Source: Candidatus Zipacnadia bacterium
GTDB lineage: Bacteria > Armatimonadota > Zipacnadia > Zipacnadales > UBA5352
Direction: 5' to 3'
DNA: 43,342 nucleotides
Assembly: GCA_029820295.1 (NCBI GenBank)
Contig: JALGVA010000024.1
Span: 1 to 43,342, forward strand
Shown: piece by piece, positions 10,929-22,824 of the stretch
Numbering within the stretch: the stretch's first letter is position 1
Layout of the letters: each line of letters begins with the position of its first letter
Notes under the pieces: model-generated
What the model was told of the DNA's origin: nothing
Database searches by the model: none
The model's input: only the letters and a program-made list of their open reading frames with translations
Position numbers and translations under genes: made by a program

Positions 10929-11645
10929 TCACGGATCGTCGTAGTTCCAGTTCAGGCGTCCGCCGTAGCTGCTCCACATGAACTGGGTCTGCTTCATCCA
11001 CTTGGCGTGACCGTCCACGCAGCCGACGTTGGCGCCCTCATTGTGCGGCGGATCCCACGTCGAGGTCACCGGGTTCGTCAGGCTCCCCCAGGCCCGGTAC
11101 CATGCCCACCGGGGATAGTCCCCACCGGTTGCCGGCCAGTAGCCGGCCTGATGGTCAATGATCCAGGCGTGTTCCGCCGGCCGCTTGATGTTGCTTGTGT
11201 TCACGCCCTCATACAGCGGGCCGGTGCGCGAGGGGTCGATGGCCCCGAAACCACACACGTAACCGCAGTAGACGTTGTAGCCATATCCGATCCAGTCGCT
11301 GGGCGTACTTGGGCAGCGGAAGATCTGTTCGTTCTTGACGTAGGGCATGATCTGGTCGGCCCAGATGGGGTAGTAGGACCTGCTGCCGCCGTAGTAGTTC
11401 ATGGCGAAGTAGCCCATCGTCATTGACGCCGGGTCGATGGAGGCCATGGCAAAAGGCATGAAATCATCGTTGTCGCTCGTGTACATCTTGCAGCCCAGGG
11501 TCAACTGTTTGACGTTGCTAAGACAGCTCGTCTGCTTCGCCTTCTCCCGCGCCCGCGCGAACACCGGGAACAGGATCGCCGCCAGGATGGCGATAATGGC
11601 AATCACCACCAGCAGCTCAATCAGAGTGAATCCATGACGCCTCAT
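10929..11645 (-). CDS. Pseudopilin with prepilin leader and H-X9-DG motif (DUF1559-like)
   Basis: The 238-residue protein opens with a type III (prepilin) leader MRRHG, then [24 protein letters not shown], with the conserved Glu at position +5 after cleavage. Next come [19 protein letters not shown] and a C-terminal [16 protein letters not shown], which is the H-X9-DG signature. Such proteins are probably processed by PilD-type peptidase and exported by a type II secretion or type IV pilus-like system. Individual roles are unknown. The ATG at 11645 has GGAGGTG at good distance; the GTG nine bases earlier is part of that ribosome site. The upstream gap 11655-11819 holds an AT-rich patch at about 11691-11720 but no convincing promoter hexamers. 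Confidence 0.88.
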
Positions 11646-16286: not shown

Positions 16287-16946
16287 CTACCCGTTGATCG
16301 ACCACCAGCACTCGGTGTCGCTGCACTTGATTTGTGTGGGCCGCTGCCACTTCACGTGCCCGTCGCAGAACAGGTAGTTGCAGCCGTCGTTGTGGCGGGT
16401 GCCGCTGCGGTCATCGTGGACGTAGCCGTGCGCCTGCGTGCCCCAGGTGCTGATCGAGTAGTCCCCGGTGAAGTCCGTGAGCAGGATGCAGCGGACCGGG
16501 TAGCGGATGTCCTCGACCGGGTGCCCGGGCGGCGGTTCGGCGCCGGTGCCGAGGTCGTTGTCCCAGTGCACATGGTTGATGGCGTAGCCCGCGGTTTGCC
16601 CGTAGTCAGGGAAGGTGCCGTCGAAGGTGTTCTGCCGCGGCGCGGTGGGGCAGACGAAGATCTGGTCGTTGTGCACGTAGGGGAAGATCATCAGCCGCCA
16701 GGTCCAGGTGGGCGCGGTGCCCTCGGGCGCGCCGCCGATGGTCAGGTCGTCCCAGGGGATGACGCCCTTGTAGTCCTCGATGTACATGCTGAAGGCGAGG
16801 CCGAGCTGGCGGATGTTGGACATGCACGCGACCTGGCGCGCCTTCTCGCGCGCGCGGGCGAACACCGGGAAGAGGATGGCGGCCAGGATAGCGATGATGG
16901 CGATGACGACCAACAGTTCGATGAGCGTGAAGCCGCGTGTGCGCAT
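16287..16946 (-). CDS. Pseudopilin with prepilin leader and H-X9-DG motif (second)
   Basis: The 219-residue protein has leader MRTRG then [24 protein letters not shown] with Glu+5, followed by ARAREKARQVACMSNIRQLGLAFSMY. The C-terminal HNDGCNYLFCDGHVKW fits H-X9-DG exactly. Four conserved cysteines may form disulfides after export. The ATG at 16946 has an AGGTG ribosome site. It is a sister of the gene at 10929-11645, and the two share their leader and FARAREKA region almost unchanged. The upstream 248 bases contain one TGAA-loop repeat and only weak promoter-like hexamers near 16976-17004. Confidence 0.88.
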   Translation of the reverse strand: MRTRGFTLIELLVVIAIIAILAAILFPVFARAREKARQVACMSNIRQLGLAFSMYIEDYKGVIPWDDLTIGGAPEGTAPTWTWRLMIFPYVHNDQIFVCPTAPRQNTFDGTFPDYGQTAGYAINHVHWDNDLGTGAEPPPGHPVEDIRYPVRCILLTDFTGDYSISTWGTQAHGYVHDDRSGTRHNDGCNYLFCDGHVKWQRPTQIKCSDTECWWSING

Positions 16947-17194: not shown

Positions 17195-19186
17195 CTACGG
17201 CGCGGCCGCCGGCTCGATCAGCACCACCCGGAACGAGTTGGCGGGCACGCACAGCACCAGGTTTGGGCCCAGCGGCGGGCAGGGCGCGCCGGTCAGCGCA
17301 TCGGTGACCGTGACCTCACTCCCCAGCTCCGCCGCGGTCGGGCGCAGGTCCATGCGCATCGCCAGCTTGTCATCGGTCGGGTTGCCGATGGTGAGCATCA
17401 CGCGATTGTCCGCCCGCCGATACGCGCCCACCAGCAGCTCCTCGGGGCCGACCGGCAGCCACGCCGGCGTGGCCTCGGGCGTGAACCACTCGACCGGCTC
17501 GGTGCCCAGGCCGAACGCCAGGCGCGCCTGCAGCACGCGCGACAGCCGTGAGTAGTCCATCCACGTGGGCACCGACATCAGCACATTGCCGTAGGGCAGC
17601 GTGCGCGTGATCAGCCAGTCGGTGTACTCCTCGCGCAGGTTCAGCGCCGAGGGCAGGAAGCACGGCTGCGAGCCCCACTGGCGGCCGGTCGCGGTGATGT
17701 CGAGGAACAGCGGCGTGATCTGCTCGGGCGTGCCGTGAGACTTGACGCGGAAGTGCTCGCCGTCGGAGTAGATGTCGCAGAAGGTCAGGTTCAGGCTGTT
17801 GGAGTTGCGCGAGTTGTGCTCCCAGATCAGCCCGGTGTCGGGCTTGCGGCCGTGGATGACGTTCCACAGGCGCTTGTGCAGTTCGCGGGTGGCGAAGTAG
17901 GGGTAAGTCGGCCCGCGGTCGCCGCCGCACCCGTGCAGGGGGTTGGTGCAGTAGTAGGGGCCGGCGTTGTCGATGTAGACGCCGTCGAGATCGTAGTCCT
18001 CCATCACGCGGTCAACCGCCCAGATCAGCCAGTCGGTGTAGCTGCTGTTCGGGCAGGTGCTGGAGAAGCCCTCAAAGCCGCGCTCGTTGGGCTCTCCCCC
18101 GAAGAACGGTTCCCCGTCCTCGATGCTCATCATCCACTCGTCGCGATGGCGCTCATGCACCGGCGAGGGGCCCGTGCCCGAGAGCGTGATGTAGACCACG
18201 GCACTGATGCCGCGCTCGTGCCACGCCTGCACCGCGGTGCGCAGCGCCTCCGGGTCGCTGGGCGAGGGGTAGCTGAAGTACTCGGTGGCGGAGTTCCAGA
18301 CCAGGGCCACGGTCTGGCCGCGCTCGGCCAGCTCCTCGGCGCCCTCGATGGTGAAGGGGCCGGAGTTGCCCACATGACGGCCGTGCCAGCCCACCGGCAG
18401 CGGCTTGCCCGGCGAGGCCTGGAGGCCCAGCGTCCACGCGATCTCGCCCGCCACGGCGGTCGGCTCCCCGATCAGGTTCACGCGCAGTACGAGTGCATCG
18501 GCGGTGCGCTCGTACTGGATCTGGCTCTCGCTCGGGCCCATCAGGTCGCCGGGATGCTCGGTGATGAAGGTCAGGCCGCGATAGTGGTCGCCGATCCAGG
18601 TACATGCCTGCCACGGCGTCTCGCGGATCCAGCCCACCTCCTGGCCGATGGCCAGATACTCGGTCGTGCCCCACTGCGCGTACTCATGCAGGAACAGCGC
18701 GACCTCGGGGCGGATGGGAATCTCGATGGCGAGGCGATCGACGGTGGCATTGCCGGCGACCGTCAGGTTCACCTGAATCAGGCCATCGTACTCCAGCCAG
18801 CAGGCCGTGCTGACCGCCAGGTTGCCGGCCTGCGCCTGCGTGGTGAACTCGACCCGGTCGGGACGCCGCACGCCGACCGTGGCCTCCCCGCCGGAGAGCA
18901 CGTGCTCCTCGCCACCGGCCGCCAGCACCAGGCGCATGGGCGCGGCCAGCAGCGCCTCGCCCTGGCTGGTGATCTGCGCGGGCAGCGGCCCGGCCAGCGT
19001 GTAGTCGCGGCCCCAGCAGCTCACGGTCGAGCCATCGACCGTCAGCGGCTCGAAGGGCGCGGGCACGTCGGTGGTCACGCCAACGTTCGCGGTCAGCCAC
19101 GGGTCGGCGGGGTCGCTGAGATCGGTCGCGGCGATGACGGGCAATGCGGGCACGACCGCAAGCAGGATGGCTGTGGTCATGCGCAT
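17195..19186 (-). CDS. Secreted TIM-barrel glycoside-hydrolase-like protein
   Basis: The 663-residue exported protein has a signal peptide (TTAILLAVVPALPVIA, cleavage near AAT). The first half of about 260 residues is beta-rich. The second half looks like a TIM barrel: ISAVVYITLSG; DGVYIDNAGPYYC with an acidic pair where barrel hydrolases keep catalytic residues; IWEHNS; and CDIYSDGEHFR. It ends in a small beta domain (VMLTIGNPTDDKLAMRMDL) typical of alpha-galactosidase-like and GH123/DUF6067-like proteins. I could not assign a family with confidence. The ATG follows TGAGGTGA. The Gfo/Idh gene ends 29 bases upstream, suggesting one operon. Confidence 0.6.
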   Translation of the reverse strand: MRMTTAILLAVVPALPVIAATDLSDPADPWLTANVGVTTDVPAPFEPLTVDGSTVSCWGRDYTLAGPLPAQITSQGEALLAAPMRLVLAAGGEEHVLSGGEATVGVRRPDRVEFTTQAQAGNLAVSTACWLEYDGLIQVNLTVAGNATVDRLAIEIPIRPEVALFLHEYAQWGTTEYLAIGQEVGWIRETPWQACTWIGDHYRGLTFITEHPGDLMGPSESQIQYERTADALVLRVNLIGEPTAVAGEIAWTLGLQASPGKPLPVGWHGRHVGNSGPFTIEGAEELAERGQTVALVWNSATEYFSYPSPSDPEALRTAVQAWHERGISAVVYITLSGTGPSPVHERHRDEWMMSIEDGEPFFGGEPNERGFEGFSSTCPNSSYTDWLIWAVDRVMEDYDLDGVYIDNAGPYYCTNPLHGCGGDRGPTYPYFATRELHKRLWNVIHGRKPDTGLIWEHNSRNSNSLNLTFCDIYSDGEHFRVKSHGTPEQITPLFLDITATGRQWGSQPCFLPSALNLREEYTDWLITRTLPYGNVLMSVPTWMDYSRLSRVLQARLAFGLGTEPVEWFTPEATPAWLPVGPEELLVGAYRRADNRVMLTIGNPTDDKLAMRMDLRPTAAELGSEVTVTDALTGAPCPPLGPNLVLCVPANSFRVVLIEPAAAP

Positions 19187-19215: not shown

Positions 19216-20211
19216 TCAGATCTCCGGGACGGGCATATCGCGCTCGCCGGTGTCGGCGGCCTTCTGCGCCACCAGCACGGCCATCTGTGAGCGGAAGACC
19301 TCGTCCATGGGCAACACGCGTTCGGTGCCGAACTCCAGGTGGGAGACGAAGTCCTCGAAGGGTGAGCCGAAGGGCAGCTTGACTGCGGCGACCGGTACCT
19401 CCTCGTCGGCGCCGCCGATGGGGCGCATGAGGATGCGACCGTGCTCGACCGCGAGGTAGCCGTCGCTGCCGGTGATGAAGAACTGCCAGCTTCGCCCGGG
19501 CATGTAGGAGACGTCGGCCATCACGCGCGGGCCGCCGGTCATGGTCATCAGGCACTGCGCGCCCACCTGGAAGAACGGCACCTCGGGCAGGCTGGCGTTC
19601 CACGTCTCGGCGGCGACCACGGTCTCGAACTCGCGGCCGGTGCAGTAGCGCAGCATGTCGGCGCCGTGGATGAAGATGTCGTTGATGGTGCCGCCGTGCT
19701 TGCCCTCCTCGAAGTACCAGCGCGGGCGGGTGTCCGGGTAGCCCAGCGGGTGCTGCCCGAAGGTGGTGGCGGCCAGGAAGTCGCCGATGGCGCCGTCCTG
19801 CATGAGCGCGCGCATGGTCTGGTACTCGGCGCCGAAGCGCATCGAGAGCTGCATGGATACCTCGAGCCCGCTTTCGTCGCACAGGCGCCTGATCTCGCGC
19901 AGCTCCTCGATGGAGGTGCACAGTGGCTTGTCGGTGACCACGTGCTTGCCGGCCTGCAGCGCCTTGATGATGACCGAGCCGCGCTTCGCGTAGTACTCGG
20001 CGGTGGCTACCAGGTCGAAGTCCACGTCGGCCAGCAGGTCGTCGAAGGTGGGGTGGGTGCGCTCAAGTTCGGTGCGTTCGAGGATCGACAGGTCGTCGTC
20101 AGACTCCTCGACGACGCCGACGATCTCGCAGTAGTCGAGGTCGCGGATGGCGCTCACGAAGCTTGTCATGTGGCCGTGCCGGAAGCCAACGAGGGCAACG
20201 CGCAGAGGCAT
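19216..20211 (-). CDS. Gfo/Idh/MocA family oxidoreductase
   Basis: This complete 331-residue NAD(P)-dependent sugar or polyol dehydrogenase-like protein has an N-terminal Rossmann strand RVALVGFRHGHM in which the usual GxGxxG is replaced by GFRHGH. It carries the DKP motif (residues 94-96, in place of EKP) and the substrate-domain segment GGTINDIFIHGADML, where D178, H182 and D185 occupy the family's catalytic positions. The ATG at 20211 was chosen over upstream in-frame codons because it begins the Rossmann strand and GGGAG lies upstream. It is followed by a TIM-barrel hydrolase-like gene and preceded by the GNAT/nitrilase/C45 operon, about 85 bases away. Confidence 0.88.
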   Translation of the reverse strand: MPLRVALVGFRHGHMTSFVSAIRDLDYCEIVGVVEESDDDLSILERTELERTHPTFDDLLADVDFDLVATAEYYAKRGSVIIKALQAGKHVVTDKPLCTSIEELREIRRLCDESGLEVSMQLSMRFGAEYQTMRALMQDGAIGDFLAATTFGQHPLGYPDTRPRWYFEEGKHGGTINDIFIHGADMLRYCTGREFETVVAAETWNASLPEVPFFQVGAQCLMTMTGGPRVMADVSYMPGRSWQFFITGSDGYLAVEHGRILMRPIGGADEEVPVAAVKLPFGSPFEDFVSHLEFGTERVLPMDEVFRSQMAVLVAQKAADTGERDMPVPEI

Positions 20212-20296: not shown

Positions 20297-21502
20297 TCAC
20301 TCCAACGCCTGCAACGCCGCCAGCGCATCATCCACGCACGCGGCCGTCAGCTCCTCCAGTGCGCCGGCATCGTCGGGAGGTACGGCCTCGGCGCGCGCGC
20401 GACACTCGGCCTGCAGCGCCGCGACCTGCTCGGCGGGCAGGCCTGGCTGGGTCGGCGGGCGACTGAGGGATCCGTCCAGCAGCGCGACCGGCAGGCGCTC
20501 GACGCCGAGGGCCAGCGGCACGAAGGGCAGCCGCCCCGGTCGCCCCACGCACACCCACGCGATGCTGCGCTCGGGGGCGCCGGCGTCGATCTCCACCGTC
20601 AGCGCGCTGATGGTGCTGTCGAAGGAGACTCCGGGCAGGCGCGCCGCCGCCATGAACGCGGCGGCGTCGAGCGTGCCTGCGTGGGCATCCATGAACTCAC
20701 GAAGCCCGGAGCGCTCAAGGCTGAGCAGGTAGCCGTCGCGCTGCCACTGCGCCTCCAGGCGATCGTTCCAGTTGACCACCCGCAGCACGTTCCCCGCGGC
20801 GTCGGCGAACATCCAGTTGGTGGCGCGGCGGCCGCCGGCGTACCAGCGCTGGTCGGTCCATTGCCGCAGGATCGCCAGCGCCTCCTCGCAGTTCTCGGCG
20901 CGTTCGGCGATGTGCCGCAGCCCCCAGGGGTTCATCAGCCCGCGGCCCCCGGGGTTGGACTCCTCCGCGCCGGTGTCCGCCGAGCCCGCCAGGCCGCGCT
21001 CGTTGACCATCATCATGCAGCCGAGGTCGCTGGCGTCCGACAGCGTGAGGAATGCACAGACGCCGGGCACGCGCGGGCGCTTGACATAGGCCACCTGCGG
21101 GCGCGCCACGTTATCGCGCGACTTGTGGAAGACGGTGTTGCCGCGCGCAGTCACACAGCCGGCGGCCGCGTATGACGTGCACTCGTCGGCGAGGAACACC
21201 AGCTCGCGGTACTTGCCGACATGGTAGGCGAGGTGCAGGTCGGTGTCGATCCCGGCGGCGTCGGCGGCTGCGTCCGCCTCTTCACGCCAATGCGGGGCGA
21301 CCCGCTCGATGATGCCGACGCCGGTCCACGCGCGGCGCAGCAGCTCATCGCGGTCGATTCCGCGCTCGCGGCCCATCTGCACGAAGGCCGCGCATTGCTC
21401 GCGCATCGCCTGCGCGTTGAGCCGCCCCCAGGTGGCGCCGATCTCGCGGGGGGTGCCGGTCAGCGAGACCATCCGCGTCGCGTCAGCCGCGTCGCGCATC
21501 AT
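20297..21502 (-). CDS. C45-type Ntn-hydrolase (acyl-CoA:6-APA acyltransferase-like)
   Basis: The 401-residue protein resembles the peptidase C45 / acyl-coenzyme A:6-aminopenicillanic-acid acyltransferase family. C108 in ECTSYAAAGCVTARG matches the family's autocatalytic nucleophile in 'gCTsfaa.g..t.dG', which becomes the N-terminus after self-cleavage. Later family segments include GLAGSADTG and TNWMFADAAGNVLRVVNW. Members transfer or hydrolyse acyl groups at amide bonds. The start at 21502 overlaps the stop of the nitrilase gene as ATGA, with GGAGATGGG just before it, so translation is probably coupled. It is the last gene of a three-gene operon. Confidence 0.75.
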   Translation of the reverse strand: MMRDAADATRMVSLTGTPREIGATWGRLNAQAMREQCAAFVQMGRERGIDRDELLRRAWTGVGIIERVAPHWREEADAAADAAGIDTDLHLAYHVGKYRELVFLADECTSYAAAGCVTARGNTVFHKSRDNVARPQVAYVKRPRVPGVCAFLTLSDASDLGCMMMVNERGLAGSADTGAEESNPGGRGLMNPWGLRHIAERAENCEEALAILRQWTDQRWYAGGRRATNWMFADAAGNVLRVVNWNDRLEAQWQRDGYLLSLERSGLREFMDAHAGTLDAAAFMAAARLPGVSFDSTISALTVEIDAGAPERSIAWVCVGRPGRLPFVPLALGVERLPVALLDGSLSRPPTQPGLPAEQVAALQAECRARAEAVPPDDAGALEELTAACVDDALAALQALE

Positions 21503-22260
21503 CCCATCTCCCATGCGAAGCCATAGACGTCCGGATGACGCTCGTCGAGCATGTTCGCGCCGCCCACCATGTCGAGGTCGCAGGCGTGCAGCAGGAACTC
21601 GGCATCGCCGACGAGGTGCGCCGCGATTTCGCCGTCCGGGCTGCAGATGAGGCTCTCCTTCGGGTGGGTGAAGCACACCCAGCAGGCGTTCTCGTAGGCG
21701 CGCGTCTGCATCCACATGGCGTTGCGTGCCCCGGACATGCCGTAGGTGGGCATGGCGATCAGTCGCGCGCCCTTGAGCCGCAGCGAGCGCATGATCTCCG
21801 GCCAGCGCCGGTCGGCGCAGATCGTGACGCCGAGGACGCCGAAGTCGGTCTCGAACACCGGCAGCGACTTCCCGTACGCATAGCGCTCGTGGGCCTGAAT
21901 CTTGTCGTACTGCCCGACGAAGCTCCCGTCGGGCGCGATCACGTGCGCGGTGTTGAAGAAGCCGTCCTCGCGGCGCTCCGACAGGCCCGCGACCAGCCAG
22001 ACGCCACACTCGGCCGCGACCTCGCGCAGGCGCGTTGCGCGTGGGCCGTCCGGGCCGGGCTCGCAGACTTCGGCGAAGCGCTCGGCGGTCCACGCCTGGT
22101 CGTGGATCACGTAGCCATCGACGAAGCACTCGGGCGTGATCACCAGGTGCGCTCCCGCGGCGGCGATCTCCGGGATGAGGCGCTCGAGGGTGGCCATGTT
22201 GGCCTCGGGCCGCCACTTCTCGGGGACGACCTTGATCATGCCGACGGTCAGCGCATTCAT
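21499..22260 (-). CDS. Carbon-nitrogen hydrolase (nitrilase superfamily)
   Basis: The 253-residue cytoplasmic enzyme has the full catalytic set of the superfamily: E44 in VITPECFVDGY, K120 in GQYDKIQ and the nucleophile C148 in VTICADRRWPE. Such enzymes hydrolyse amides, nitriles or carbamoyl groups. Because the third motif is CADRRWPE, an amidase or N-carbamoyl amidohydrolase branch is likelier than a true nitrilase. The start overlaps the GNAT stop as ATGA at 22257-22260. It stands in the middle of the GNAT, amidase and Ntn-hydrolase operon. Confidence 0.9.
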   Translation of the reverse strand: MNALTVGMIKVVPEKWRPEANMATLERLIPEIAAAGAHLVITPECFVDGYVIHDQAWTAERFAEVCEPGPDGPRATRLREVAAECGVWLVAGLSERREDGFFNTAHVIAPDGSFVGQYDKIQAHERYAYGKSLPVFETDFGVLGVTICADRRWPEIMRSLRLKGARLIAMPTYGMSGARNAMWMQTRAYENACWVCFTHPKESLICSPDGEIAAHLVGDAEFLLHACDLDMVGGANMLDERHPDVYGFAWEMG

Positions 22261-22733
22261 GCGCCGCGCACCCCCTCGACCGGCTGCTCGTAGACGATGT
22301 AGTCGGCTTCGTTCATGCCCAGGCGCTCGTAGGCCAGCCGGGCGCGTTCGTTGTCGCGGCGCACGTAGAGACGCAGGGCCGCAGCGTGCGCGTCGCGCGC
22401 CGCCTGCTCGATGTGCCGGTAGATAGCGGCGAAGACGCCGCGCCGGCGCCACTCGGGCAGTACGTAGACGCTCTGCAGCCACCAGTACTCGCAGCAGTTC
22501 CAGTCGCTCCACTCGGAGGTGACCAGCGCCTGGCCGACCAGCCCCTCGTCGGCCTCGGCCACGTAGTAGACGCCCCTGGCGCGGTCCTGGAGCGCCGCGC
22601 GCACCGCCGCCGCCACGACCTTCTCGTCCAGCACCGCGCCCTCGCTGTCGCGGGCCATGGCCACCACGAACTCGGTCACCAGCAGCGCGTCCTGTGGCTT
22701 GGCCTCGCGGACGATCACCTCTGCCTGCGCCAT
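22257..22733 (-). CDS. GNAT family N-acetyltransferase
   Basis: The 158-residue acetyltransferase has the GNAT motif A strand/loop YVLPEWRRRGVFAAIYRHIEQAA, where the acetyl-CoA pyrophosphate binds at R/QxxGxG/A-like RRRGVF, plus the later AALRLYVRRDNERARLAYERLGM segment. The substrate amine is unknown. The ATG at 22733 is preceded by GGGAGGTG; the GTG nine bases upstream lies in that ribosome site and is rejected as start. It is the first gene of the operon with a carbon-nitrogen hydrolase and a C45-type hydrolase, joined by ATGA overlaps. Confidence 0.88.
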   Translation of the reverse strand: MAQAEVIVREAKPQDALLVTEFVVAMARDSEGAVLDEKVVAAAVRAALQDRARGVYYVAEADEGLVGQALVTSEWSDWNCCEYWWLQSVYVLPEWRRRGVFAAIYRHIEQAARDAHAAALRLYVRRDNERARLAYERLGMNEADYIVYEQPVEGVRGA

Positions 22734-22795: not shown

Positions 22796-22824
22796 CACGC
22801 CCCCGCAGGTGTCGCGGGGGCGTG
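22796..22824 (-). terminator. Terminator-like hairpin behind the hydroxyacid dehydrogenase (no U-tract)
   Basis: An 11-bp perfect GC-rich stem (22796-22806 with 22814-22824) closes a seven-base loop, 24 bases after the dehydrogenase stop and before the GNAT operon. The bases after the stem on the minus strand are TTCGCG, so there is no U-run. Confidence 0.55.

Follow-up and report, generated by a model that had tools for sequence, protein, structure and literature searches.

We found that three adjacent genes encoding a GNAT acetyltransferase, a nitrilase-superfamily amidase and a C45-like Ntn hydrolase/acyltransferase are coupled on the minus strand of the window, the 43,342-nt stretch of a Candidatus Zipacnadia genome analysed here. 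Our leading, still tentative, reading is a small catabolic or salvage operon that dismantles N-carbamoyl- or N-acyl-amino compounds and is probably read through into a Gfo/Idh-family oxidoreductase gene. An earlier note had described the three enzymes as joined by two ATGA overlaps, without giving their strand. Both overlaps were confirmed, and the three open reading frames were intact and free of internal stops, all on the minus strand within 20297-22733 (Table 1). Of the 33 pairs of neighbouring codirectional genes in the window, two overlap by 4 nt, the GNAT/amidase and amidase/C45 pairs; across 16 related loci 6/132 pairs do so, and two of the six are again GNAT/amidase (G005, G009); the counts rest on a simple purpose-made gene caller, and the related genomes are not independent events. 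The coupling of the three genes is real and exceeds the local background of about 5%, and the three appear to be transcribed and translated together as a unit.

Table 1. Positions of the features described (window coordinates unless a locus is named)
Feature	Position	Strand	Basis	Remarks
GNAT acetyltransferase	22733-22257	minus	ORF, PF00583	158 aa; opens the unit
Nitrilase-superfamily amidase	22260-21499	minus	ORF, PF00795	253 aa
C45-like Ntn hydrolase/acyltransferase	21502-20297	minus	ORF, NF040521 (below cut-off)	401 aa
ATGA overlap	22257..22260	minus	sequence	GNAT stop/amidase start
ATGA overlap	21499..21502	minus	sequence	amidase stop/C45 start
GC-rich 12-pair hairpin	22796..22824	minus	folding	just past the 2-hydroxyacid dehydrogenase stop
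Gfo/Idh-family oxidoreductase	19216..20211	minus	PF01408/PF22725	331 aa; 85 nt after C45
GH123-N/GHL6-type glycoside-hydrolase-like protein	17195..19186	minus	PF19543 4.6e-17, PF14871 1.5e-10	29 nt after Gfo/Idh
Prepilin-like proteins (two stand-alone genes)	10929-11645, 16287-16946		N-terminus named by eye	
Creatininase-family cyclic amidohydrolase of G006	L050 7069-7881		PF02633 2.7e-36	between GNAT and amidase, overlapping both (called starts)
Longer CN-hydrolase-like gene	L049 3-1292			
Longer CN-hydrolase-like gene	L050 11009-12337			
Longer CN-hydrolase-like gene	L051 3720-5105			
Longer CN-hydrolase-like gene	L052 13696-15069			
Longer CN-hydrolase-like gene	L093 4019-5401			
Longer CN-hydrolase-like gene	L112 1895-3223			
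Latescibacterota gene run	L073 6836-12673			

Upstream of the GNAT gene, 114 nt away on the same strand, lies a 2-hydroxyacid dehydrogenase gene, and the hairpin past its stop is probably a terminator that sets the GNAT unit apart from it. Comparable hairpins folded in all seven family loci examined (window, L050, L051, L052, L093, L094 and L095). We graded the hairpin as no more than a probable terminator because most of the family hairpins lack the T run needed by the consensus terminator scan, which returned no terminator, the 22796-22824 hairpin included. The consensus promoter scan gave a single promoter-like site, within the C45 gene. Downstream, the Gfo/Idh oxidoreductase is probably a further member of the operon, and the GH123-N/GHL6-type gene is possibly its last. 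The earlier note had proposed looking at co-occurring genes, Gfo/Idh and transporters among them: a close Gfo/Idh ortholog was found in 9 of the 10 genomes of the GTDB family (the window's counted) and follows the locus in all nine, whereas neither a transporter nor a regulator was seen in the unit of three genes. Gfo/Idh genes are numerous, with 102 first-look candidates in the window's genome. Two prepilin-like genes also lie in the window (Table 1).

The GNAT (PF00583: 8.9e-14, 52.2 bits, cut-off 20.7) and the amidase (CN_hydrolase PF00795: 8.8e-38, 130.5 bits, cut-off 23.2) belong to their respective families, the latter to the nitrilase superfamily. In NCBIfam, no model came near its cut-off for the amidase, and all 17 GNAT matches fell far under theirs. 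The catalytic residues named in the earlier note were all seen and are invariant, namely the Glu-Lys-Cys triad E44, K120 and C148 in 10/10 aligned amidases and C108 in 13/13 aligned C45-like proteins, where T109-S110 come next. The four aligned GNAT copies share a conserved EWSDW...WWxQSVYV core.

To the amidase nucleophile belongs the motif CADRRWPE (148-155), which aligned to CNDRRWPE in the D-carbamoylase chains 2ggk and 1fo6. The amidase also has the Arg pair of the D-carbamoylases at catalytic Cys+3/+4 (Arg151/Arg152), and in those enzymes this pair binds the substrate carboxylate. The D-carbamoylase His at catalytic Lys+2 was not matched: the window amidase and the four sequences closest to it have Gln there (Q122). 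H199 is invariant in 10/10 aligned amidases. A paper on carbamoylases lists the triad together with His129, His144, Arg175, Arg176 and His215 as their substrate-recognition residues (PMC3546935). The N-carbamoyl-D-amino acid amidohydrolases (1erz, 1fo6, 2ggk) resemble the amidase in the nitrilase fold, the Glu-Lys-Cys triad, the C-x-D-R-R-W-P-E motif and the Arg pair, whereas the window amidase is about 50 residues shorter, is 22-24% identical to them in the fold alignment, carries Gln instead of His at Lys+2 and lies nearer to archaeal amidases in fold. The best overall match in fold and sequence, at similar length, was to PH0642 and the P. abyssi nitrilase (1j31, 6ypa, 3ivz), but PH0642 reads CFDWFFPE where the window amidase reads CADRRWPE. 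In the fold ranking of the predicted model (AF2, pLDDT 91.5), the archaeal PH0642/nitrilase structures came first (Z 34.9-34.2) and the D-carbamoylases scored 30-31. We rejected the structure as a guide to the substrate, as many nitrilase-superfamily amidases are about equally similar (Z 30-35). The CxDRRWPE motif points to a carboxylated substrate, and the amidase may act like a carbamoylase on such a compound; we did not file it as a D-carbamoylase because Q122 replaces the recognition His at Lys+2. Carbamoyl release, as suggested in the earlier note, thereby draws some support from the D-carbamoylase-like motif.

The window's genome contains 13 other PF00795 matches; of seven loci tried, six were alignable and none of these six carried the CxDRRWPE motif. 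In other genomes 12 of 24 loci had it, L048 and L146 being the same gene entered twice. The CADRRWPE subfamily spans Zipacnadia relatives, other Armatimonadota and Latescibacterota. A plasmid search found no relative of the GNAT or the C45-like protein, and identities to the amidase of at most 33% among the 40 matches listed, the two examined lacking the DRRWPE motif. The context of distant amidases (G041, G053, G055, G078, G127, G279, G281 and G282) was also rejected as a source for the substrate, no partner being common to the window locus.

For the C45-like protein, Pfam gave no match at E<=0.001 (AAT PF03417 stood at 0.0011, with 19.2 bits against a cut-off of 23.2), and the NCBIfam model NF040521 C45_proenzyme matched at 1.4e-20 with 73.9 bits, under its cut-off of 85. 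Because it lies below both cut-offs, we call the protein C45-like and not a family member by the curated rule. NF040521 matched all 13 aligned relatives at E<=0.001. The best structural match of the AF2 model (pLDDT 89.9; mean 58 for the block 101-110) was the isopenicillin N acyltransferase precursor 2x1c (Foldseek 3.7e-13; VIA Z 31.2, rmsd 2.7, 304 residues aligned, 16% identity). The best matches were isopenicillin N acyltransferase, as precursor and mature enzyme, followed by acid ceramidase and NAAA. The protein is thus predicted from its model to fold like a penicillin acyltransferase precursor, with which, as with the NF040521 proteins, it shares an Ntn fold, an N-terminal part of about 100 residues and a Cys-Thr nucleophile; it differs in its low identity, its sub-threshold score and the Glu or Asp that replaces Gly before the Cys. 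In a weak profile alignment (E 0.2), C108 fell opposite the nucleophile of the IAT sequence DGCTTAYC; against this, the structural alignment to mature Ntn enzymes begins at residue 110, two past C108 and beside the low-confidence stretch. C108, which follows a 107-residue N-terminal part, is expected to be the nucleophile. In a different family of this order, relatives of the C45-like protein (L055, L056) are clustered with Gfo/Idh-like genes, and at L055 Pfam named xylose-isomerase-like, RbsD/FucU, sulfatase and URO-D genes nearby; these clusters hint at sugar-linked substrates.

The nearest named relatives of the window's genome are Candidatus Zipacnadia MAGs (Armatimonadota), and the locus was readable in nine of the ten genomes of the GTDB family; in the tenth (G001), no close Gfo/Idh was found and a contig apparently starts within the locus. 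Taking as locus content the genes that lie between Gfo/Idh and the 2-hydroxyacid dehydrogenase (or the site it would occupy), we found GNAT-amidase-C45 in G000, a tightly packed GNAT-creatininase-amidase-C45 in G006, which belongs to another genus, GNAT-amidase with its overlap kept in G005 and G009, GNAT only in G003, G004 and G007, C45 only, without the 2-hydroxyacid dehydrogenase, in G002, and none of the three in G008. GNAT orthologs were present in G005, G009 and G006 as well as in G003, G004 and G007. In G006, the amidase and C45 genes share a GTGA overlap, if the GTG start is right. The trio is not confined to this genome, a restriction that the earlier note had held against its own proposal: the coupling recurs in G006. 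The gene order that it had asked to be followed across genomes was partly conserved, with GNAT-amidase coupling in G005 and G009 and the trio in G006, whereas 6/9 genomes carried one or two parts without the rest. The appearance of a single unit and the recurring coupling are in line with the note, and the one short pathway that it proposed may exist, but a fixed pathway was not supported: the trio occurs in 2/9 family genomes with the locus, and its members come and go. Wherever the genes occur together they remain coupled, yet the three do not form an obligate unit.

Among 291 genomes of the phylum, a C45 match (E<=1e-25) was found in 22 and an amidase match (E<=1e-45) in 18. Both hydrolases occurred in five (G000, G005, G006, G009 and G049), and side by side on one contig in two. 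A scan of named genomes with two peptide patterns, which miss divergent relatives, gave ten amidase loci, four corresponding to G005, G009, G035 and G006 and six from Latescibacterota at 40-43% identity. In these six (two of them short), tblastn found no GNAT and no C45, and the amidase loci of G279, G281 and G282 had no neighbour matching either. The GNAT search (E<=1e-15) gave a match in 15/151 genomes, 8 of the 15 outside the GTDB family; in six such outside loci neither an amidase nor a C45 neighbour was called, the caller being poor on the lower-GC ones. Identities to G005/G009/G006 were 80/70/63 for the amidase, 69/64/52 for the GNAT and 83/75/65 for Gfo/Idh. The amidase and GNAT identities, falling in step with those of Gfo/Idh, fit vertical descent with loss, of which the trees are no proof: the marker tree has no root and two of its inner nodes have supports of 32 and 34, and the window's C45 copy is not firmly grouped with those of G002 and G006 in the C45 tree. 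At one Latescibacterota locus (Table 1), a Cys/Met-type PLP enzyme, the amidase relative, two Gfo/Idh and an ornithine-cyclodeaminase-like gene form a run. We rejected this run as a shared system because its adjacent Gfo/Idh is not close to that of the window (31% over 146 aa) and Gfo/Idh genes are so numerous.

The salvage operon is the explanation we place first, at somewhat less than an even chance. Under it, the amidase triad Glu44-Lys120-Cys148 would hydrolyse a carbamoyl or primary amide group while Arg151/Arg152 would hold the substrate carboxylate, as in D-carbamoylases. The C45-like protein would cleave itself before Cys108, and the resulting N-terminal Cys108 would remove an acyl group from an amine, or transfer it. 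The GNAT would use acetyl-CoA to cap an amine that has been freed or is toxic. Successive action of the three enzymes on a single molecule is not required, and their patchy co-occurrence is consistent with a group of related amide functions, each of which can be lost on its own. In favour of the salvage operon are the two 4-nt overlaps against the low background, the GNAT-amidase overlap kept in G005 and G009, the hairpin before the unit in 7/7 loci, the CxDRRWPE motif common to D-carbamoylase structures, the match of the C45-like model to the IAT precursor and the creatininase inserted in G006. Hydantoin use consists of ring opening plus decarbamoylation, and the G006 creatininase beside a carbamoylase-like enzyme recalls this pairing by analogy. 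Against the salvage operon stand the trio in just 2/9 family genomes, an overall fold that does not single out D-carbamoylase, the Q122 mismatch, the unit without transporter or regulator, and the Latescibacterota amidase relatives without GNAT or C45. Synteny carries little weight at this locus, as the order of unrelated neighbours (dxr, rseP, ispG, proS and Memo) is conserved as well.

Ranking close behind, with roughly one chance in three in our estimation, is the explanation that the genes are co-transcribed but functionally separate, occupying a slot of variable content, flanked by the 2-hydroxyacid dehydrogenase and Gfo/Idh genes, where unrelated small enzymes are retained, acquired or lost, with the overlaps reflecting compact packing. 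The slot indeed holds the trio, GNAT plus amidase, GNAT only, C45 only or none, and it admits other genes: the creatininase in G006, cation-efflux-like and rubrerythrin-like genes in G002 (named by eye), a small protein of heavy-metal-associated-like type, encoded on the other strand, in G003, G007 and G009 (named by eye) and two short proteins in G004. Packing accounts less well for the rarity of 4-nt overlaps elsewhere here, for an amidase that is always with GNAT at the locus (4/4) and for amidase and C45 genes that are overlapping neighbours in 2/2 cases.

A stricter form of the salvage reading, in which the carbamoylase-like amidase and the penicillin-acyltransferase-like Ntn enzyme would act consecutively on a doubly N-substituted amino compound, with the GNAT capping the product, Gfo/Idh oxidising it and an optional creatininase-type ring opener acting first, is unlikely; candidate substrates would be an N-acylated, N-carbamoylated or ureido amino acid or amino sugar. 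Equally unlikely is metabolite repair or detoxification, in which the hydrolases would clear amides that are damaged or foreign and the GNAT would acetylate toxic amines. Nit1 and Nit2 of the nitrilase superfamily are repair enzymes, and GNATs of the window type are found beyond the family as well (8 of 15 matching genomes), with no amidase or C45 neighbours called in six loci, but no stress genes lie alongside the unit and the CADRRWPE motif is unlike the CYDIRFPE type present in L151, which we take to be Nit-like. Slightly less probable still is a biosynthetic role, with the C45-like protein as an acyl-CoA-dependent acyltransferase that decorates an amine together with the GNAT, and the amidase removing a protecting carbamoyl or acyl group: the nearest structural match is an acyltransferase and not a hydrolase, and GNATs use acyl-CoA too, but the scanned flanking genes include no synthetase, carrier protein or exporter, the downstream genes look catabolic (Gfo/Idh, glycoside-hydrolase-like), and C45-like relatives sit in sulfatase/sugar-isomerase clusters.

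Among known arrangements, fused GNAT/carbon-nitrogen hydrolase proteins of the YhcX type combine both activities in one protein, whereas the GNAT and amidase here are separate overlapping genes. The Nit1C cluster likewise brings together a nitrilase-superfamily gene and a GNAT gene, accompanied by radical SAM, AIR synthase and hypothetical genes, and no C45-type gene appears in the available part of its description (PMC1199592). Identity of the unit with Nit1C was rejected, as neither radical SAM nor AIR synthase was among the Pfam-scanned flanking genes. In a limited literature search on these enzyme combinations, the GNAT/amidase/C45 trio was not found described, and the words "amidase" and "nitrilase" do not occur in the main text of the Zipacnadia paper (PMC10290634). 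The unit is a rare, lineage-restricted set of known families, of which only the combination is novel.

Should the three enzymes have a substrate in common, the unit would define a route to N-substituted nitrogen compounds used by an uncultured Armatimonadota lineage, and a C45-like bacterial enzyme would gain a metabolic partner; if they do not, it would be an ordinary compact operon. The CADRRWPE subfamily yields a concrete and inexpensive prediction, namely that the substrate is a carboxylated amide or ureide. Near the locus, six family genomes carry another CN-hydrolase-like gene, which is absent from the window; it is longer (429-461 aa) and has an additional N-terminal region (Table 1).
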